From Spiribacter sp. 2438 (GTDB taxonomy: Bacteria > Pseudomonadota > Gammaproteobacteria > Nitrococcales > Nitrococcaceae): a DNA stretch of 64,000 nucleotides. Below, piece after piece: positions 51,858 to 64,000 of this stretch; position 1 is the stretch's first letter, and the number at the start of each line of letters is the position of its first letter. The notes beneath the pieces were generated by a model. It had not been told where the DNA came from, made no database searches, and was given only the letters and a program-made list of their open reading frames with translations. The stretch covers positions 1,612,001-1,676,000 of the forward strand of contig NZ_CP046046.1 of NCBI RefSeq assembly GCF_009676705.1, in the 5' to 3' direction. Position numbers and translations under genes: made by a program.

Positions 51858-52358
51858 TCAGCCCTGAATCTCTTCAACGGTCTTGCCACGTTTGGCAGCC
51901 ACCTTCTCCGGCGAGTTGTAAGCCGCCAGCGCGTTAATGGTGGCACGCACCACGTTGACCGGGTTGCGTGAACCAATGGCCTTGGCCAGCACATCCTGCA
52001 CACCGACCACTTCGAAAACGGCACGCATGGCGCCGCCTGCGATGATGCCCGTACCCGCCGAGGCGGGCTGCATGAACACCTTGCTGGAACCGTGGTAGGC
52101 GGTAATCGGATACTGCAGCGTGGGGCCGTTGAGGCTGACCTTCTGCATGTTGCCGCGGGCACGCTCCATGGCTTTCTGGATGGCAAGCGGCACTTCACGG
52201 GCCTTGCCATAACCAAAACCCACGGACCCCTCTCCGTCACCAACCACGGTCAGGGCCGTGAAGCCGAACTGGCGGCCGCCTTTGACCACCTTGGCTACAC
52301 GATTAATGGTGATGAGCTTCTCCCGAAGACCCTCACCGCTGACATCGCTGCTCGCCAT
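51858..52358 (-). CDS. rpsE: 30S ribosomal protein S5
   Basis: S5 lies at the mRNA entry channel and the decoding site. It has 166 residues: the S5 RNA-binding domain with [20 protein letters not shown] and the fold with [27 protein letters not shown]. Spectinomycin-resistance positions lie in the KVVKGG loop, which looks wild type. 17 bases separate it from rplR. Confidence 0.97.
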
Positions 52359-52375
52359 ACCCTATATGCCTCTAT

Positions 52376-52729
52376 TCAGAATTTGAGTCCGGCTTCGCGG
52401 GCTGCGTCGGCAATTGCCTGCACCCGCCCGTGATATTTGAAGCCCGAACGGTCGAAGGCCACCTCGGTGATCCCCGCCGCGACAGCCCGCTCGGCAATCG
52501 CCCGGCCGACGGCCTTGGCCGCCTCGACATTGCCGCCGTTGCCAAGCCCGCCACGGACATCTTTCTCCAGCGTCGATGCTGACGCCAGCGTCCGGTCGGC
52601 CGTGGCGGAGATGATCTGCGCGTAGGTGTGCCGCGGCGTGCGATGAATGGTCAAACGCACCGTGCCGAGCTCCTGCATTTTTGCCCGGGCCTTGCGTGCC
52701 CGACGCTGTCTTGCTGACTTCTTGTCCAT
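52376..52729 (-). CDS. rplR: 50S ribosomal protein L18
   Basis: L18 binds 5S rRNA with L5 and L25. 117 residues from the ATG at 52729 ([17 protein letters not shown]), which matches the family start and length; a GTG two codons earlier overlaps the rplF stop by one base and is less likely. [11 protein letters not shown] and [12 protein letters not shown] are the conserved blocks. Confidence 0.96.
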
Positions 52730-52734
52730 CGCCA

Positions 52735-53271
52735 CTACTTCTTCTTGGCTTCTTTCATGATGACCCGCTCGTCGGCGTAACGGACGCCCTTGCCCTTATA
52801 GGGCTCCGGCGGCCGGTAGGCGCGAATCTTGGCCGCCACCTCACCAACCAGCTGCTTGTCGATACCCTTGATCACGATCTCGGTGTTCGACGGCGTCTCG
52901 ACTGAGATGCCTTCGGGCACCGGATGCTCCACGGGGTGGGAGAATCCCAGGGTCAGGTTCACCTTCTGCCCCTGGGCCTGGGCACGATAGCCCACACCCA
53001 CCAGCTGCAGCCGGCGCTCGAACCCCTGACTCACGCCGTGAACCATATTGTTCACCAGCGCCCGGGTCGTCCCCGCCAGCGCCACTGCCTCCTGCCGCTC
53101 CTTGTTGGCGGCAAAAGTGAGGGTGGCCTCGTCCTGCTCGACGTCCACCCAGTCATGGATGGTGTGCTGCAGTTCACCCTTGGCGCCCTTGACGGTGATA
53201 CGCCGGGCTTCCTCGAATTTGACTTCGACACCCTGGGGAATCGCTACCGGATTGTTCGCTACTCTGGACAT
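52735..53271 (-). CDS. rplF: 50S ribosomal protein L6
   Basis: L6 lies by the sarcin-ricin loop and the factor-binding site. It has 178 residues, made of two similar domains. The C-terminal block is [20 protein letters not shown], and the [23 protein letters not shown] block joins the two halves. It is separated from rpsH by 18 bases. Confidence 0.97.
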
Positions 53272-53289
53272 GACGCCTCGGTCCCGTCT

Positions 53290-53685
53290 TTAGAACACAA
53301 CGCAGAGCACTTCGCCGCCATGACCCGCGTCCCGCGCGGCCCGGTCGGTCATCACACCCTGCGAAGTGGAAATAATGGCTGTACCCAATCCACCACGGAC
53401 CCGCGGCAGCGTTCGTTTACCTTCGAAGCGGCGCAGACCCGGGCGGCTCACCCGCTGAATCTCCTCGATGACCGGACGGCCCTCGTGGTACTTCAGCGAC
53501 ACCACCAGCGAAGGCTTTTTCTCGTCGCCTTCCACCCGGTAGTCCTGGACGTAGCCCTCGTCCTTCAGCACCCGGGCGATGGCTACCTTCTGCTTCGAGG
53601 AGGGCATTGAGACCTCCGGCTTCTCGGCGGACTGCCCGTTGCGTATACGGGTCAGCATATCCGCGATGGGATCGGTCATGCTCAT
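53290..53685 (-). CDS. rpsH: 30S ribosomal protein S8
   Basis: S8 binds 16S helix 21 and, in E. coli, represses the spc operon by binding at the rplE start. It has 131 residues, beginning [17 protein letters not shown] and ending in a strand after [17 protein letters not shown]. An AGGTGA ribosome site precedes the ATG. It lies between rpsN and rplF. Confidence 0.97.
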
Positions 53686-53731
53686 GTTCGCGTCACCTGG
53701 TTCCTTGCCTGATTGCTCCGGTCCATACCGC

Positions 53732-54037
53732 TCACCAGCTGGACAGCTTCAGGCCGGGGATCTCGCCGCGCATGGCGGCCTTGCGGAGCATGTTCCGGGC
53801 CAGGCCGAACTTGCGGTAGTAACCGCGGGGCCGACCCGAGACATTGCACCGATTGCGCCCACGCACGGGGCTGGCGTTCCGGGGCAGATTCTGTAACTGC
53901 TCCTGAGCCGCCGCCCGCTCCTCCTCCGAGGAACCGGGGCTGCGGATGATTTCCTTGAGCTCGGCACGCTTTGCGGCGTACTTGACCCGCAGCCGCTCCC
54001 GCTTGAGCTCACGCTGGACCATGGAAACCTTTGCCAT
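53732..54037 (-). CDS. rpsN: 30S ribosomal protein S14
   Basis: S14 of the 30S head. At 101 residues it is the long, zinc-free form (no CxxC knuckles), with N-terminal [19 protein letters not shown] and C-terminal [18 protein letters not shown]. It follows rplE after 12 bases and precedes rpsH. Confidence 0.97.
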
Positions 54038-54049
54038 TTCCTGCCCTCT

Positions 54050-54589
54050 TTACTTGCGGAACGGGAAACCGAAACCCTCAAGGAGGGCCTGAGCTTCCGC
54101 GTCCGTCTCTGCCGTGGTGCCGATTGCAATGTCCATTCCGCGAATGGCGTCGATCTTGTCGAACTCCAGTTCGGGAAACACCAGTTGCTCACGGACACCG
54201 AGATTGTAGTTGCCGCGGCCGTCGAACGACCGGGGCGAAAAGCCCCGAAAGTCACGGATCCGGGGCGCTGCGATGTTGACCAGACGGTCAAGAAATTCGT
54301 ACATGCGGGACCGACGCAGCGTGACCTTAACGCCGATGGGCCACTCCTCACGGATCTTGAATCCGGCCACGGCCTTGCGGGTATAGGTCACGATCGGCTT
54401 CTGGCCGGCCAGCGCCGCCATGTCGCCACTCGCATGATCGATCACTTTTTTATCCCGCACTGCTTCGCCGAGACCCATGTTGATCACGATCTTTTCAAGC
54501 CGCGGCACCTGCATGGGATTCGAATACTCGAAGCGCTCCTGCAGGGCCGAGACGATTTCGCTTTTATATTGTTCGCGCAATCTGGCCAT
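54050..54589 (-). CDS. rplE: 50S ribosomal protein L5
   Basis: L5 binds 5S rRNA and bridges to S13. 179 residues from the ATG at 54589, which has an AAGG overlapping the rplX stop; a GTG one codon upstream is too close to that site. Conserved blocks are [19 protein letters not shown] and [17 protein letters not shown]. Confidence 0.97.
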
Positions 54590-54598
54590 CACGGCACC

Positions 54599-54916
54599 TT
54601 AATCAATCAGATTATTGTCAGACTTGAAAAAGCGCTCTTTCGTGCCATCGTCCGCCACACGGATACCGACGCGGTCGGGTTCACCCGTGTTGGGATTGTA
54701 GATGGCCACGTTGGAGCGATGGATCGGCATCTCTTTCTCGATGATGCCGCCGGCGTCGTTCGCCTGGGGATTCGCCCGCTTGTGCTTTTTCACCATGTTC
54801 GCGTTCTCGACCACCACGCGATCCCGTTCGGGAATCACCCGGGTAATGCGCCCGCGGCGGCCCTTGTCCTTGCCGGCGATGATCATGACTTCATCGCCCT
54901 GCTTAATCTTGCGCAT
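54599..54916 (-). CDS. rplX: 50S ribosomal protein L24
   Basis: L24 is an assembly initiator of the 50S subunit, with a KOW motif. It has 105 residues: [20 protein letters not shown] is the KOW, and [18 protein letters not shown] follows. It sits 2 bases downstream of rplN. Confidence 0.96.
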
Positions 54917-54918
54917 GT

Positions 54919-55287
54919 CTAGAGCACCTCCGGAGCCAGCGAGATGATGCGCATGAACCGCTCGTCCCGCAGCTCGCGGGTAACCGGTCCGAACACGCGG
55001 GTGCCAATGGGCTGCAGGTTGTTATTCAGCAGCACCGCCGCGTTGCCATCGAAACGGATCAGGGACCCGTCCGGGCGACGGACGCCGCGCTTGGTGCGCA
55101 CCACCACCGCGTTGTACACCTCGCCTTTCTTGACGCGGCCCCGAGGGATCGCGTCCTTCACACTAACCTTGATTATGTCGCCGATGCCGGCGTAGCGGCG
55201 CTTGGACCCGCCCAGTACCTTGATGCACTGGACCTCCCGCGCTCCGCTGTTGTCCGCCGCGCCAAGCAGCGTCTGCATCTGAATCAT
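54919..55287 (-). CDS. rplN: 50S ribosomal protein L14
   Basis: L14 lies on the subunit interface and is the binding site of RsfS, whose gene is also in this window. It has 122 residues, with [20 protein letters not shown] and [19 protein letters not shown]. In E. coli it is the first gene of the spc operon. A 30-base gap to rpsQ is too short for a clear promoter. Confidence 0.97.
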
Positions 55288-55317
55288 GGCGATTGACTCT
55301 CTTGTATTCCGTTGGGC

Positions 55318-55581
55318 CTACTGAGCAGCGCGCTCAAGAATTTCCACCAGCCGCCAGGACTTCTGCCGGGAAATGGGGCGGCACTCTTCGACGGCGACCC
55401 AGTCGCCCTTCTGGCAAGCGTTGTCAGCGTCATGGGCGTGGACCTTGGTGGTCCGACGGATGTACTTGCCGTACAGCGGATGCCGGACCAGTCGCTCCAC
55501 CGCCACGGTGATGGTCTTGTCCATCGCCGTGCTGGTGACCCGGCCGTTCACCGTCCGCTTGACGCTATTGTTCTCGCTCAT
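55318..55581 (-). CDS. rpsQ: 30S ribosomal protein S17
   Basis: Primary 16S rRNA-binding protein with an OB fold. It has 87 residues: [20 protein letters not shown], then [18 protein letters not shown], and ends in [15 protein letters not shown]. It overlaps rpmC by 4 bases (ATGA). Confidence 0.97.
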
Positions 55582-55781
55582 GACGTCTCGCCTGTCTTGG
55601 TCTTCTCATTGATCACGGTCTTGATACGGGCAATATCCCGCCGGACCCGCTTCACCTCGTCGGGCCGCGCCAGCTGGCCGGTGGCCTGCTGCATGCGCAG
55701 ATTGAACTGCGCCTTGCGCTGCTCGAGGAGCTCGGCTTCCAGTTCCGTCAGCTGTTTGTCGCGAAGCTCACTTGCCTTCAT
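55578..55781 (-). CDS. rpmC: 50S ribosomal protein L29
   Basis: Two-helix protein at the tunnel exit, beside L23. 67 residues from the ATG at 55781 ([19 protein letters not shown]), which shares one base with the rplP stop (TGATG); a GTG just before would give a GTGA overlap instead. The C-terminus [14 protein letters not shown] is typical. Confidence 0.96.
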
Positions 55782-56194
55782 CACATCGTCGTCCGCTCAA
55801 CGAAGCGTGTCTGCACCGGCAGCTTGGCCGCGGCACGCCGGAACGCCTCACGCGCCACTTCCTCGGAGACACCTTCAATTTCATAAATGACCCGTCCGGG
55901 CTGCACCTTCGCGGCCCAGTGGTCGACGTTGCCCTTGCCCTTGCCCTGCCGCACTTCCAACGGCTTGGAAGTAATCGGGGTATCCGGGAAAATCCGGATC
56001 CAGATCTTTCCGCTACGCTTGACGTGGCGGTTGATGGCCCGACGGCCGGCTTCGATCTGACGCGCGGTGACCGGCCCCCGGGTGGTGGACTTGAGCCCGA
56101 ACTCACCGAAGTTGACCTTGTCGCCCCGCGTCGCCAGGCCGTTGTTACGGCCTTTCTGCTGTTTCCGGAATTTCGTGCGCTTTGGCTGCAGCAT
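55781..56194 (-). CDS. rplP: 50S ribosomal protein L16
   Basis: L16 positions A-site tRNA near the peptidyl transferase centre. It has 137 residues, with N-terminal [18 protein letters not shown] and the [16 protein letters not shown] loop whose arginine is hydroxylated in some bacteria. It overlaps rpmC by one base and follows rpsC after 21 bases. Confidence 0.97.
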
Positions 56195-56215
56195 CTCTGT
56201 CTCCTTCGGATCCGG

Positions 56216-56878
56216 TTAGCCCGCGGCGCGCTGGTTCGGCGCCTGATCGGTGTCCAGGATCTCGCCCTTGAACACCCAGACCTTGACGCCGATCACACCA
56301 TAGGTAGTGCGCGCTTCGGCGAAACCGTAGTCGATGTCCGCGCGCAGGGTGTGCAGCGGCACACGGCCTTCGCGGTACCACTCGCTGCGGGCGATCTCGG
56401 CGCCGTTCAACCGACCGCCAACCTGGATCTTGATGCCCTGAGCGCCCAGACGCATGGCGTTGCCCACCGCACGCTTCATGGCCCGACGGAACATGATCCG
56501 CCGCTCCAGCTGCTGCGCCACACTCTCGGCCACCAGCTGGGCGTCCAGCTCAGGCTTGCGGATTTCCTCGATGTTCACGTGCACCGGAATGCCCATGCGC
56601 TGAGTCAACTCGCGACGCAGCCGATCGATGTCCTCGCCCTTTTTGCCGATCACGATGCCCGGCCGCGCGGTGTGGATGGTGATCAGCGCGTTCTTGGCCG
56701 GGCGCTCGATGCGGATCCGGCTGATGGAAGCGTGGGAAAGACGCTTCTTAATGAATTCCCGAATCCGGTAATCCATGTGCAACTGCTCACCGTAGCGATT
56801 GCTATCGGCGTACCACATGGAGCGCCATTCCTCGGTGATACCGAGTCGGAAACCTGTGGGATGAACCTTATGACCCAT
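56216..56878 (-). CDS. rpsC: 30S ribosomal protein S3
   Basis: S3 lies at the mRNA entry and acts with S4 and S5 in mRNA unwinding. It has 220 residues: N-terminal [13 protein letters not shown], a KH domain with [18 protein letters not shown] and the C-terminal domain with [18 protein letters not shown]. 10 bases separate it from rplV. Confidence 0.97.
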
Positions 56879-56888
56879 GCCTAAACCC

Positions 56889-57221
56889 CTAGTCCTCGGC
56901 GACCGCCACAGTGATGTGACTGGTCCGCTTCAGGATGCGATTGGCCCGGCCTTTCGCCCGGGGCTGAATTCGCTTGTACATCGGCCCCTCGTCCACCTGG
57001 ATGCGGGCCACACGCAGCTCGTCAATGTCCGCGCCATTGTTGTGCTCGGCGTTTGCGATCGCCGAATCCACCACCTTGCGCACAATGCCCGCCGCCTTGC
57101 GGGGGCTGAACTCCAGAATTTCCAGCGCCCGCGACACCGGCAGACCACGAATCTGGTCCGCTACCAGCCGCACTTTCTGCGGCGAGATGATCGCGTAACG
57201 AAGCCTGGCCGCCGTTTCCAT
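56889..57221 (-). CDS. rplV: 50S ribosomal protein L22
   Basis: L22 lines the nascent-chain tunnel with a long beta hairpin. It has 110 residues, with [20 protein letters not shown] and a hairpin around [17 protein letters not shown], the region where macrolide-resistance changes occur; nothing unusual seen. It starts 3 bases after the rpsS stop. Confidence 0.97.
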
Positions 57222-57224
57222 GAC

Positions 57225-57500
57225 CTACCTCTTCGCCTTCTTGTCGGCCAGATGCCCTTTGAACGTCCGCGTTGGCGCGAACTCACCGAGCTTGTGACCG
57301 ACCATGTTCTCGTTGACGAGCACCGGCACATGCTGGCGCCCGTTATGGACCGCGATGGTGAGACCCACCATCTCCGGCACCACCATGGAACGCCGCGACC
57401 AGGTCTTGATCGGACGCTTGCTGTTGGCCTCAGCCGCCTGCTCAACTTTCTTCAGCAGGTGACTGTCAATAAACGGCCCTTTACGAATCGAGCGTGGCAC
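57225..57500 (-). CDS. rpsS: 30S ribosomal protein S19
   Basis: S19 of the 30S head, paired with S13. It has 91 residues: [19 protein letters not shown], then [16 protein letters not shown] and [20 protein letters not shown]. It follows rplB after 20 bases and precedes rplV. Confidence 0.97.
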
Positions 57501-57520
57501 TTTTCATCCACCCCTGTTCA

Positions 57521-58345
57521 TTAGCGTTTGCGACGGCGCACGATCAGCTTGTCCGTGCGCTTGTTGCTGCGAGTCTTGTGACCCTTGGTGGGAACACCCC
57601 AGGGCGTCACCGGATGCCGACCACCGGAGGTTCGGCCTTCACCACCACCATGGGGATGGTCCACCGGGTTCATCACCACACCGCGAACGGTGGGGCGACG
57701 ACCAGCCCAGCGGCTGGCGCCCGCCTTGCCCAGTGAGCGCAGAGCATGCTCCGAATTGCTGACCTCGCCGATGGTGGCGCGGCAGTCGCTCAAGACCTTG
57801 CGCATCTCGCCGGAGCGCAGGCGCAGCGTGGCGTAGGCCCCCTCGCGGGCGACCAGCTGTACGCTGGCGCCTGCGGAACGCGCCATCTGCGCACCCTTGC
57901 CGGGCCGCATCTCGATGCAGTGCACCTGGCTGCCCAGCGGGATGTTGCGAAGTGGCATGGCATTGCCCGGCTTGATCGGCGCGCCCACCCCGGAGTGGAC
58001 CGGCTGCCCGGCTTTCAGGCCCTTGGGAGCGATGATGTACCGGCGCTCGCCATCCTGATAGAGCACCAGGGCGATGTGCGCGCTGCGGTTGGGATCATAT
58101 TCAAGGCGCTCCACCACACCGGGAACGCCATCCTTGTTGCGCTTGAAATCAATGATTCGGTAACGGCGCTTGTGCCCGCCGCCAATGTGCCGTGTCGTGA
58201 TCCGGCCGTGATTGTTCCGACCGCCACTCTTCGAGAGCTTGCGGACCAGCGGAGCGTGCGGCTCGCCTTTGTGCAGACCGTCCTTGACGGGCTGAGCAAC
58301 AAACCGCCGCCCTGGCGAAGTGGGTTTTGCTTTACGCAGTGCCAT
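57521..58345 (-). CDS. rplB: 50S ribosomal protein L2
   Basis: L2 supports the peptidyl transferase centre and the intersubunit bridges. It has 274 residues, with [20 protein letters not shown] and the C-terminal [18 protein letters not shown], whose histidine is near the active site. It lies between rplW (18-base gap) and rpsS. Confidence 0.97.
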
Positions 58346-58363
58346 GATAGATGTCCTGTTCGC

Positions 58364-58663
58364 TTACTCGACGCCGCCGATGAAGTCGAGCTCTTCGCCC
58401 GCTTCCAGCGCCACGTATGCTTTTTTCCAGTCCGGTCGCCGGCCCTGAAGTCGGCCAAAACTTTTGCGCTTGCCGTTGACGTTCACGACGCGGACGTCAC
58501 GAACCTTGACTTCGAACAGCTGCTCGACGGCGGCCTTGATCTCTTTCTTGGTGGCGTCGCGCGCTACCGTGAACACCACCTGGTTCGCCTCATCGGCAAT
58601 GATGGTGCTCTTCTCGGAGATGTGAGGCCCACGCAGGACCTGATATACCCGCTCCTGATTCAT
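58364..58663 (-). CDS. rplW: 50S ribosomal protein L23
   Basis: L23 is the docking site for trigger factor and SRP at the tunnel exit. 99 residues from the ATG at 58663 ([19 protein letters not shown]). This start has GAGGAG at 8 bases, forms an ATGA overlap with the rplD stop and matches the family length; another ATG three codons upstream is less likely. Confidence 0.96.
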
Positions 58664-59268
58664 GCCAGCCACTCCTCGACTCGGCGCAGGGCATCCACGG
58701 TCATGACCACGTGCTCATGAGTGAGCAGGGTCACCGGGTCCAGCCCTTCGGTGTCACGGACTTCCACCCGCGGCAAGTTGCGCACTGCCAGGTAGAGGGT
58801 CTCGCTGATTTCGGTGCTGATGATCAGCACATCCTCGCTGCCCACGGTCTTTTGCACGGTGTCCAGCGCCACTTTTGTGCGCGGCTCGGTGACATCGAAA
58901 CCGTCCACGATGTGCAGGCGCTCCTGACGGAGCAGTTCCGACAGAATGGAGCGAATCGCGCCGCGGTACATTTTGCGGTTGACCTTGACCGAGTGGTCCC
59001 GGGGCTTCGCGGCAAACGCGCGACCGCCGCTGCGCCACAGCGGGCTCCGGATGGAACCGGCCCGTGCCCGCCCGGTGCCTTTCTGACGCCAGGGCTTGGA
59101 ACCGCCGCCACGCACTTCGGAGCGGGTCTTCTGTGCCTTGGTGCCGGCACGCCCGCCGGCCAGATAGGAAACCACCACCTGGTGAACCAACGGCTCGCGG
59201 AACTCGGCACCAAAGGTGGTCTCGGAGACCTCCAGCTTTTTCTTGCCGCCGTGCAGCTCGACTTCCAT
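58660..59268 (-). CDS. rplD: 50S ribosomal protein L4
   Basis: L4 reaches into the exit tunnel. In E. coli it also represses its own S10 operon by binding the leader and stimulating an intrinsic terminator with NusA. It has 202 residues, including the tunnel-loop region [20 protein letters not shown]. The ATG shares a base with the rplC stop (TAATG). The structured rplC leader upstream is a candidate target for this protein. Confidence 0.97.
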
Positions 59269-59927
59269 TAGTTACCTCCTGCCGCAGCGGTCTGCTTGAT
59301 GGCCGGCCGGATCACGACATCGCCGCCGCGATGCCCGGGGACGGCGCCACGGACCAGCAGCAAGTTGCGCTCGGCGTCCACCCGAACGATCTCAAGGTTC
59401 TGGGTGGTCACCCGCTCGTTACCCATCTGTCCGGCCATTTTCTTGCCGGGCAGGACTCGACCGGGGTCCTGCGCCTGGCCGATGGAGCCGGGGACGCGGT
59501 GAGCCTTGGAGTTGCCGTGGCTGTTGTCCTGGGTGCGGAAGTTGTGTCGCTTGACGGTACCCGCGAAGCCCTTGCCCTTGGAGGTGCCGGTAACGTCCAC
59601 GACGGCACCCGCCTCAAACTGCTCCACGGTCAACTCGGAACCCGGGGAATGATCGCCATCCCCATCGCCCCGCAGCCGAAACTCCCAAAGACCGCGGCCC
59701 ATCTGCACACCGGCCTTGGCGGCGTGTCCAGCGGCGGCCCGGTTAACCCGGGACGGCCGGCGCTCGCCCACCGTCACCTGAATGGCGCGGTAGCCATCCG
59801 GGTCATCCTGCTTAATCTGTGTAACGCGGTTCGGCTCGGCTTCAATCACCGTCACCGGCACGGAGGAACCATCCTCCATGAAAACCCGCGTCATGCCGCA
59901 TTTGCGGCCGACGATTCCAATTGCCAT
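59268..59927 (-). CDS. rplC: 50S ribosomal protein L3
   Basis: L3 starts 50S assembly and approaches the peptidyl transferase centre. It has 219 residues, with [20 protein letters not shown] and [13 protein letters not shown], whose first glutamine is the PrmB methylation site in E. coli. A short Asp-rich loop ([13 protein letters not shown], about 85-97) differs from the E. coli sequence. AAGGGG precedes the ATG. A 189-base leader with a terminator lies between it and rpsJ. Confidence 0.97.
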
Positions 59928-59972
59928 CGTCGATATCCCCTTCTATCGGGCAGAGGGCGCAGCAAACGAAGC

Positions 59973-59993
59973 CATCGACGTAAGCCGTCGATG
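59973..59993 (-). promoter_or_regulatory. Hairpin in the rplC 5' leader
   Basis: A perfect 8-base-pair inverted repeat, CATCGACG and CGTCGATG, with a 5-base loop. It lies about 45 bases upstream of the rplC start, outside the ribosome site. Confidence 0.55.
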
Positions 59994-60010
59994 ACATCGC
60001 ACAGCGCCAG

Positions 60011-60030
60011 GAACCCGAATTGTTCGGTTC
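60011..60030 (-). promoter_or_regulatory. Hairpin immediately after the attenuator U tract
   Basis: On the minus strand GAACCGAA-CAA-TTCGGGTTC forms an 8-base-pair stem with a single bulged base. It starts at the base after the U6 of the terminator, so it could influence terminator release or be an alternative fold in read-through transcripts. Confidence 0.5.
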
Positions 60031-60055
60031 AAAAAAGGTCGTCCCGAAGGTCGAC
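60031..60055 (-). terminator. Intrinsic terminator / attenuator upstream of rplC
   Basis: On the minus strand the sequence reads GTCGACC-TTCG-GGACGAC, then C and six T. Six of the seven stem pairs are canonical (one A-A mismatch) and the C(UUCG)G tetraloop is exceptionally stable. The U6 run starts one base after the stem. It lies 61 bases after the rpsJ stop and about 100 bases before the rplC start, so full termination would shut off the S10, spc and alpha genes from the str promoter. Confidence 0.75.
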
Positions 60056-60084
60056 TGACTGAGGCCCGCCCCAGCTGTCCGGTT

Positions 60085-60098
60085 CGGCACCGGTGCCG
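60085..60098. repeat. 14-base perfect palindrome CGGCACCGGTGCCG
   Basis: A perfect inverted repeat without spacer, 18 bases after the rpsJ stop on the minus strand. As RNA it can form a short GC-rich hairpin or compete with neighbouring GAACCGG sequence; as DNA it could be an operator. It is the first structural element of the rplC leader. Confidence 0.6.
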
Positions 60099-60116
60099 GG
60101 GTAGTTCCCCGAAAAC

Positions 60117-60434
60117 TCAGGAGAGCTTGATCTGAACGTCAACGCCGGCTGCGAGGTCGAGCTTCATCAGCGCATCGACCGTCTTGTCAGTCGGGTCAAC
60201 GATATCCATCAACCGCTTGTGAGTCCGAATTTCGTACTGATCCCGCGCGTCCTTGTTGACGTGCGGTGAGATCAGGATCGTATACCTTTCCTTCTTGGTC
60301 GGCAAGGGCACCGGGCCCCGAACCTGGGCCCCGGTGCGCTTTGCCGTCTCAACGATTTCCCGCGCAGACTGATCGATCAAGCGATGGTCGAACGCCTTAA
60401 GACGGATGCGAATCTTCTGATTTGCGACTGCCAT
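60117..60434 (-). CDS. rpsJ: 30S ribosomal protein S10 (NusE)
   Basis: S10 of the 30S head; as NusE it also forms antitermination complexes with NusB and couples to NusG. It has 105 residues, with [20 protein letters not shown] and [19 protein letters not shown]. It starts only 6 bases after the tuf stop, so it is transcribed and probably translated with tuf. A 189-base structured gap then separates it from rplC, unlike the E. coli layout where the leader precedes rpsJ. Confidence 0.98.
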
Positions 60435-60440
60435 TCCGGA

Positions 60441-61631
<1,191 letters not shown>

Positions 61632-61686
61632 GACTCACCTCTTATCCGTCAAATACCTGAATTCACAATCGGCCAACCCCGGAGGA

Positions 61687-63780
61687 TCAGCCGGCCTTTT
61701 TGATCACTTCATCGGCGATGCTGCTCGGCGCCTCTGCATAGCCGTCGAACTCCATGGAGTACGCGGCGCGGCCCTGGGTGGCCGAGCGAAGGTCGGTAGC
61801 ATACCCGAACATTTCCTTGAGTGGCACTTCGGCGCGGATGATCTTGCCCGCCGGGCCGTCTTCCATGCCCTGGACCGTGCCGCGACGACGATTAACGTCA
61901 CCCATCACGTCACCCATGAAGTCCTCGGGGGTGACGATTTCGACCTTCATCATCGGCTCGAGCAGTACCGGGTTGGCTTTCATGAAACCATCCTTGAACG
62001 CCATGGAGCCGGCAATCTTGAAGGCCATCTCGGAGGAATCGACATCGTGGTAGGAGCCGTCGAACAGCTCGACCGCGAGATCAACCACCGGGAAGCCGGC
62101 GAGAACGCCGTTTTCCATCTGCTCCTGGATGCCCTTGTCCACCGACGGGATGTACTCCCGGGGGACGACACCACCAACAATCTTGTTAGTGAACTCGTAG
62201 CCCTCGCCGCGCTCCCGCGGACGCATCCGGATCCAGACATGACCATACTGACCCCGACCACCGGACTGACGGACAAACTTGCCCTCGACCTCAATGGCAT
62301 CGCGGATCGCTTCGCGGTAAGCCACCTGCGGCTGACCGACATTGGCCTCCACCTTGAACTCCCGCTTGAGCCGGTCGACGATAATTTCGAGATGGAGCTC
62401 GCCCATGCCGGAGATGATGGTCTGCCCGGACTCTTCATCGGTGCGGACCTGGAAGGACGGATCCTCCTGGGCCAGCTTCTGCAGCGCGATGCCCATTTTC
62501 TCCTGGTCGCCCTTGGTCTTGGGCTCAACGGCCACGGAGATCACGGGATCCGGGAACTCCATGCGCTCGAGGGTCACCTTGCTGTCGTTGGCGCAGAGGG
62601 TGTCACCGGTGGTGACATCCTTGAGGCCGATGGCCGCGGCAATGTCGCCCGCGCGGACCTCGTCGATCTCCTTGCGCTCTTTGGAGTGCATCTGAACGAT
62701 TCGACCCAGGCGCTCCTTCTTGCCCTTGACCGGGTTGTAGACCGAGTCACCGGATTTGACCACACCGGAATACACCCGGAAAAAGGTCAGGGTGCCGACA
62801 TAAGGGTCCGTGGCAATCTTGAATGCCAGCGCGGCGAACGGCTCGTCATCATCGGGGCCGCGGCTGGCGGCGCTGCCGTCCTCGAGCTCGCCTTCAATGG
62901 CCGGCACATCGAGGGGCGATGGCATGTATTCCACCACCGCGTCCAGCATGGCCTGTACGCCCTTGTTCTTGAACGCCGACCCGCACAGAACCGGCACCAC
63001 TTCGTTGGCGATGGTCTGAACCCGCAGGCCGTGATTGATCTCTTCGACGGTGAGCTCCTCACCGCCGATGTACTTGTCCATGAGCTCTTCGTTGGCTTCG
63101 GCGGCGGCTTCAACCAGCGCTTCGCGGAAGCTGGCCGCGTCCGAGGCCAGCTCGGCGGGGATGTCCACTTCCTCGTAGGTGGCGCCGCGATCGTCTTCAT
63201 TCCAGTAAATGGCTTTCTGACGGATCAGATCCACCACGCCAGCGAAGTTGTCTTCGGCGCCGATGGGCAGCTGCGCCGGGATGGCGTTGCAGCCAAGGCG
63301 CTCCTTGACCATTTCGATGCACCGGAAGAAGTCGGCGCCCATCTTGTCCATCTTGTTGACGAACACCATGCGCGGCACGCCATAGCGGTCCGCCTGGCGC
63401 CAGACGGTTTCGGTCTGGGGCTCAACGCCGGCGTTGGCATCCAGCACGCAGACGGCACCGTCAAGGACCCGCAGCGACCGCTCCACCTCGATGGTGAAGT
63501 CAACGTGGCCGGGGGTGTCGATGATGTTGATGCGGGTTTCGGGATACTGCTGATCCATTCCCCGCCAGAACGTGGTGGTCGCGGCCGAGGTGATCGTAAT
63601 GCCACGCTCCTGCTCCTGCTCCATCCAGTCCATGACGGCTGCGCCCTCGTGGACTTCGCCCATCTTGTGGGAGATACCGGTGTAAAACAGGATTCGCTCG
63701 GTGACCGTAGTCTTACCGGCATCAATGTGGGCCATGATGCCGATATTGCGATAGCGCTCGATCGGTGTCTTGCGTGCCAA
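61687..63780 (-). CDS. fusA: Elongation factor G
   Basis: Translocase GTPase, 697 residues, beginning [21 protein letters not shown] after the start codon, with [20 protein letters not shown] and NKMDKMGAD motifs. No ATG or GTG is possible at the homologous start. The first codon is TTG at 63780, with AGAGG 9 bases upstream and the rpsG stop 19 bases before it. The frame stays open further upstream, but only as a shadow of rpsG. The use of TTG for such an abundant protein is unusual. Confidence 0.96.
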
Positions 63781-63799
63781 AACGATATACCTCTGACTC

Positions 63800-64000
63800 T
63801 TACCAGCGGAAATGCGAGAAGGCCTTGTTGGCCTCCGCCATCCGGTGCGTGTCCTCGCGCTTCTTGACCGCGCTACCGCGACTCTCGGCCGCTTCCAGCA
63901 ACTCGTTGCCAAGGCGATGACCCATGGTGGCCTCGCTGCGCTTGCGGGAAGCCTCGATCACCCAGCGCATGGCCAGGGTGTTGCGACGCTGCGGGCGAAC
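63800..64000 (-). CDS. rpsG: 30S ribosomal protein S7 (5' partial)
   Basis: The last 66 residues of S7, running off the window end: [20 protein letters not shown] near the cut, then [21 protein letters not shown] at the C-terminus up to TAA. S7 nucleates the 30S head and contacts E-site tRNA; in E. coli it represses the str operon. About 90 N-terminal residues, and rpsL before it, lie outside the window. Confidence 0.97.

Follow-up and report, generated by a model that had tools for sequence, protein, structure and literature searches.

Genes and Spacing at the Locus

The window, a stretch of 64,000 nucleotides from Spiribacter sp. 2438, lies within a single 1.90-Mb contig. On its minus strand it carries, in order, fusA, tuf, rpsJ, rplC, rplD, rplW, rplB, rpsS, rplV, rpsC, rplP, rpsQ and the spc genes as far as rpsE (Table 1). 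The S10-spc genes form a large ribosomal block that limits growth, and their product S10 doubles as the transcription factor NusE. A sequence-only reading of this DNA had placed tuf 6 nt from rpsJ and rpsJ 189 nt from rplC, and measurement of the three minus-strand genes gave the same distances. The rpsJ–rplC spacer is the largest untranslated gap of the cluster, in which other neighbours lie at most 55 nt apart; the 199 nt between rplP and rpsQ are occupied by the small gene rpmC and are hence not untranslated. Draft assemblies often break inside tuf, just 5′ of rpsJ (e.g., G002:C1, G013:C4 and G098:C12), probably owing to tuf duplication, and scans for whole operons would miss the rpsJ–rplC region in them.

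Table 1. Features at the rpsJ–rplC junction, in window coordinates.
Feature	Position	Strand	Evidence or remark
tuf	61631–60441	−	upstream neighbour of rpsJ
rpsJ (S10/NusE)	60117–60434	−	ORF and PF00338 match; last gene before the spacer RNA
rpsJ–rplC spacer, 189 nt, strongly folded RNA	59928–60116	−	shuffle test of fold
P1, two stems and an invariant asymmetric internal loop	60061–60110	−	20/20 family loci; covariation; one copy per genome
P2, UUCG hairpin	60038–60055	−	covaries in the genus; weak in this species
U6 run	60031–60036	−	this species only, in alignment of 11 congeners
Single-strand candidate ACAAUUCGG	60015–60023	−	columns fully or almost invariant across 11 congeners
P4, strong local hairpin	59971–59995	−	z = −5.7
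AAGGGG, Shine-Dalgarno-like, of rplC	59937–59942	−	sequence
rplC (L3), first gene 3′ of the spacer	59268–59927	−	rplD and rplW then overlap in tandem

The spacer as a whole is predicted to fold at −87.3 kcal/mol (z = −4.4), and none of 200 shuffles was equally stable. Within it, the sequence-only reading had picked out a UUCG hairpin followed by U6, two further hairpins and a 14-base palindrome. All of these are present, but they differ in what they withstand. The C(UUCG)G hairpin, followed by C and the U6 run, is short (4+2 bp), contains an A·A mismatch and has a stability of −6.8 kcal/mol (z = −1.2), against −13 to −15.6 kcal/mol in two relatives. The hairpin at 60030–60011 is at shuffle level (z = −0.45), whereas its neighbour P4 is strong. 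The palindrome CGGCACCGGTGCCG (60098–60085) is broken in congeners. In the alignment of 11 congeners, the U6 site reads CUUUUUU in the window only and elsewhere, for example, GUCAUUUGAA, GCCAUGUGAA, GCCAUUUGAA or CAUCAAUCCGAA; the run was not found in any of the ten other congeners, the closest one included.

These results bear on the proposal that the control device is an intrinsic terminator or attenuator, regulated by L4, at the UUCG hairpin. Both hairpin and U6 are there in the window, and the E. coli S10 leader, in which L4 stimulates termination (literature cited in PMC7186457), provides a precedent. However, a U-run confined to one species, next to a hairpin that is weaker here than in relatives and that a terminator scan did not pick up, makes this explanation improbable.

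A Covarying RNA Directly after rpsJ

The structure that is conserved, P1, was not among the features first picked out. It starts about 6 nt 3′ of the rpsJ stop codon and reads GGGGAACUA-CCCCGGC...GCUGGGG-CGGGCCUC in the window. At every locus of the Spiribacter family, which includes Spiribacter (with Spiribacter salilacus), Nitrococcus mobilis and Arhodomonas aquaeolei, the rpsJ stop codon is followed by GGGAACUAC, then a stem-loop and then GCGGGCC. These two flanks of the internal loop are both invariant, and 18 columns are invariant in the alignment of 20 distinct sequences (locus L060 duplicates L013, from the genome known as Spiribacter salilacus). P1 is built from a basal stem GGGG/CCYC, an internal loop (AA/G, CU/GG, A/C), a 7-bp stem and an apical 6-bp hairpin.

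On the consensus structure of P1, 91.5% of the cells are paired, a value that is biased upwards because folds of single sequences contributed to the derivation of that structure. When the partner strand is slid by one column, pairing falls to 55–59% (maximum 58.6%). Compensatory changes on both sides occur in 12 of the 19 pairs, amounting to 33 cells versus 11.1 in shuffles. None of 500 shuffles attained any of the observed covariation measures, a test in which the kinship of the sequences alone can beat shuffles. Double changes at many independent pairs are a stronger argument than the percentage paired, and these compensatory changes show that there has been selection on RNA pairing. Both the covariation and the invariance span six genera. 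Thus, alignment of the gap in relatives, the check that had been put forward for the stems, did uncover a covarying RNA, but neither U6 nor the palindrome is kept in the relatives.

The other parts of the spacer are less uniform. P2 covaries among 11 species of the genus, with double changes in six of its eight pairs. The single-strand candidate ACAAUUCGG reads ACAAUUUGG in one congener, where one base is changed, and is otherwise invariant. The P4 stretch is unalignable between species and its sequence varies freely; stable folds occupy its position in most, not all, members of the family. A candidate closing stem, P0, would join GUUUC after the stop codon to GAAAC before AAUUCGG. It is paired in 96% of cells, with no pair changed on both sides and one pair broken in the window. 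A pseudoknot-like P3 (GCGCCA/UGGCGC) was rejected, being paired in only 59% and absent from the window.

Across the family loci, the rplC Shine-Dalgarno sequence is not covered by any conserved helix. Sequestration by P1 was considered and set aside: its CCUC can pair with GAGG in some species, inconsistently. At the rplC start itself, in the window (59905–59932) and in relatives, CGACG 5′ of the AUG pairs with codons 5–7 (AUCGUCG). In the Spiribacter family the start codon thereby lies in a hairpin with the loop GGCAAUCGGA, the coding half of which is common across the class.

Distribution and Novelty of P1

When 84,980 species genomes were scanned for the pattern, 17 stretches matched, 13 of them in the Spiribacter family and every one of these before rplC. 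The other four, in Planctomycetota, Cellulosimicrobium, Verrucomicrobium and Marmoricola, have no rplC 3′ of them, and by our own estimate their number is about what chance would give. In viruses, the sole pattern match came without rplC; no further P1 copies were found in the same genome or in viruses. A covariance model of P1 (R1) matched 20 of 23 family genomes, including all 17 of good quality, with a single copy in each that invariably sits between rpsJ and rplC; the three genomes without a match are incomplete assemblies, and rplC was not found in them either. The model matched none of 31 other genomes of the same order and, with the strict filters of the larger search, gave no match beyond the family in 369 genomes of the class. 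Run unfiltered on rpsJ–rplC gaps of other families, for the most part within that order, it again found nothing.

The window had no match in Rfam 15 at the gathering threshold, and a permissive search of the family loci returned none of relevance. Neither Rfam 15 nor the open-licence literature yielded a description of P1, and none was found in the main texts of two broad surveys of leader and RNA candidates (PMC2965389 and PMC2864571) or in Eckert and Weinberg (2020). By these searches, P1 is a previously uncatalogued candidate RNA, specific to one gammaproteobacterial family.

It could still be asked whether the spacer merely contains chance hairpins without function, given that the genome is GC-rich and that two of the features first proposed are no better than shuffles. 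This is barely credible, as it is contradicted by the covariation of P1 and P2, by invariance over six genera, by the fixed position and by the lack of copies elsewhere in the genomes.

The Same Gap in Other Gammaproteobacteria

To our knowledge, the known feedback leader of the S10-spc genes precedes rpsJ in the species examined so far. We compared the rpsJ–rplC gap at 79 loci that sample the class, one per family. In 13 of them (L091, L099, L105, L112, L120, L121, L122, L124, L127, L131, L132, L141 and L154), the gap contains a hairpin with the loop UCAAUCG(A/U)AA, about 25–50 nt 5′ of rplC and just before its ribosome-binding site. In E. coli (L090), an identical loop caps HE, the attenuator hairpin of the S10 leader, which is found before rpsJ. 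The stem of these HE-like hairpins covaries, with double changes in six of seven pairs. A model of HE (R2), built from the 13 loci themselves, finds all 13 at E ≤ 8e-6 and nothing more at E < 0.1 in 65 kb. At most of the 13 loci, tuf lies at most 12 nt from rpsJ. The position and loop of these hairpins suggest that they represent a relocated, L4-type control point. Pseudomonas aeruginosa reportedly lacks the required features of an S10 leader before rpsJ (Allen and colleagues, J. Bacteriol. 1999), and the HE-like hairpins that other families carry downstream of rpsJ may have a bearing on this absence.

Sigma-70-like promoters were also seen in the gap of several families, with HE in L105, L132 and L141 and without it in L103 and L126 (e.g., TTGTCA-18-TATAAT in L132). 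Such sequences suggest that the S10 operon has its own promoter 3′ of rpsJ in these five lineages. The sites lie 5′ of terminator-like hairpins. They also raise the question of whether the gap in Spiribacter sp. 2438 serves the S10 genes as a promoter instead of carrying an RNA element, a local promoter having been one of the options of the sequence-only reading. For this species the idea is highly improbable: no sigma-70-like site was found on either strand in a scan of 52000–64000, the best match in the gap (TCGGGA-17-AACAAT) is poor and not common to relatives, and the compensatory changes reflect selection on RNA pairing.

HE itself was not found by R2 in the gap of the Spiribacter family, where only weak matches (10–13 bits) occurred, over the rplC start codon. 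We rejected this start hairpin, CGACGAUGGCAAUCGGAAUCGUCG, as an HE-like element: its loop belongs to coding sequence that is widespread in the class, and the same loop also occurs at loci with a separate HE hairpin. Any control in the gap of the Spiribacter family would thus use a different RNA. A third type occurs in families of the same order without P1, namely a compact hairpin, GAGCCC...GGGCUC, which lies with the UUUGUCUC that follows it immediately 5′ of the rplC ribosome-binding site (L016, L018, L022, L024, L030, L034, L036, L043 and L044, and in looser form L017 and L029).

The broader claim that the control point of the S10 operon lies after rpsJ rather than before it fared better than the devices first assigned to it. 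As HE-like hairpins and sigma-70-like promoters occupy the same gap elsewhere, and as the gap RNA covaries here, the claim is plausible; the terminator and the local promoter proposed for this species are not supported.

A Putative Ribosomal Protein Leader

The explanation that we favour, with moderate confidence, is that P1 and P2 form a family-specific ribosomal protein leader that would control rplC and the genes after it autogenously. This is the most likely reading because of the position of the RNA and the precedent of the S10 operon (PMC7186457). The invariant loop flanks and the 18 invariant columns are typical of protein-binding RNA, and the combination of an invariant asymmetric internal loop with compensating stems points to protein recognition. 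The fixed context before rplC, the size of the untranslated gap and the presence of unrelated structured elements in the same gap elsewhere are also consistent with a leader. Against it stand the missing rRNA likeness (see below) and the lack of a conserved helix over the Shine-Dalgarno sequence; moreover, an RNase site would be conserved likewise.

That last point leads to the alternative that P1 and P2 are an mRNA processing or stability element, at which a cut by RNase III or RNase E separates tuf-rpsJ from the rplC mRNA, the two parts then differing in stability. Such a role would suit a long GC-rich stem that follows a stop codon directly, inside a lengthy polycistronic mRNA and where the str genes give way to the S10 genes. 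However, the stem pieces of P1 are only 6–7 bp long, with interruptions, and the internal-loop sequence is conserved while the stems vary by compensation, which is more in line with recognition by a protein than with a generic duplex for RNase III. We therefore regard processing as unlikely.

If P1 and P2 are a leader, we infer that the ligand is most likely L4, by precedent of the E. coli S10 operon, and otherwise L3, the first product. In sequence plus structure, P1 showed no likeness above chance to the 16S and 23S rRNAs of E. coli, which served as the reference after an rRNA search of the own genome gave no sequence. This comparison lends no support to any particular ligand. Binding by a ribosomal protein is nevertheless compatible with this result, since such leaders often lack visible rRNA mimicry (PMC2864571).

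In the mechanism that we envisage, the operon protein (L4 or L3), when in excess over rRNA, would bind the invariant internal loop of P1, and binding would lower the expression of rplC and its coupled genes. Being translated with tuf, further upstream, rpsJ would escape this repression. Because P1 begins so close to the end of rpsJ, its base would be covered by a ribosome that terminates there, and translation of rpsJ could in this way be coupled to the leader's state.

A further step is tentative, though possible: the feedback site of the S10 operon may have been rebuilt after rpsJ with an unrelated fold, read by L4 in a new mode or by L3. We know of no leader shown for L3. If true, the control point would have been both moved and reinvented, and S10/NusE could be regulated apart from the remaining operon. 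Together with the HE-like hairpins elsewhere, this would mean that S10/NusE has repeatedly been left outside the feedback loop of its namesake operon. P1 and the HE-like hairpins are short, testable RNAs with which to ask how one ribosomal protein recognises unrelated leaders.

Comparison with Known Systems

A close parallel is the L4-responsive E. coli S10 leader with its HD and HE hairpins. Like P1, it is a structured untranslated RNA guarding the S10 operon, with feedback by an operon protein that is plausible for P1 as well; in E. coli, L4 acts on the operon at the level of both transcription and translation (PMC7186457). However, the E. coli leader lies before rpsJ, where the tuf–rpsJ gap of the window leaves 6 nt, and P1 lies before rplC. 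The HE loop of E. coli (UCAAUCGUAAU, or UCAAUCG(U/A)AAU) has no motif in common with P1. Its U-run terminator has no conserved counterpart here, and no counterpart of its promoter was found at the gap in the window. A likeness of GGGGAACUAC to GGGGAGCUAC of the E. coli leader was taken as coincidence, as the pairing context differs. The HE-like hairpins of the 13 loci share with P1 the gap, a covarying stem and a place before the rplC ribosome-binding site. Unlike P1, they are simple hairpins with a conserved loop, UCAAUCGAAA, and they are absent from the Spiribacter family.

Among catalogued leaders, those of Eckert and Weinberg (2020, PMC7247131) are likewise conserved RNAs before ribosomal protein genes, with ligands assigned by position. 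A term search of Table 1 of that paper found no gammaproteobacterial rplC leader; the archaeal L4 leader described there precedes rplC in Archaeoglobi and resembles P1 in this position. The rpsL leaders of Naville and Gautheret (2010, PMC2965389) are similarly variable between lineages and belong to the neighbouring str operon. Unlike P1, they precede rpsL and act as attenuators, and the main text of that paper contains no rplC or rpsJ case. What ribosomal protein leaders have in common, a conserved and covarying RNA that lies 5′ of a ribosomal protein gene in the same sense, is also what P1 and P2 present upstream of rplC.
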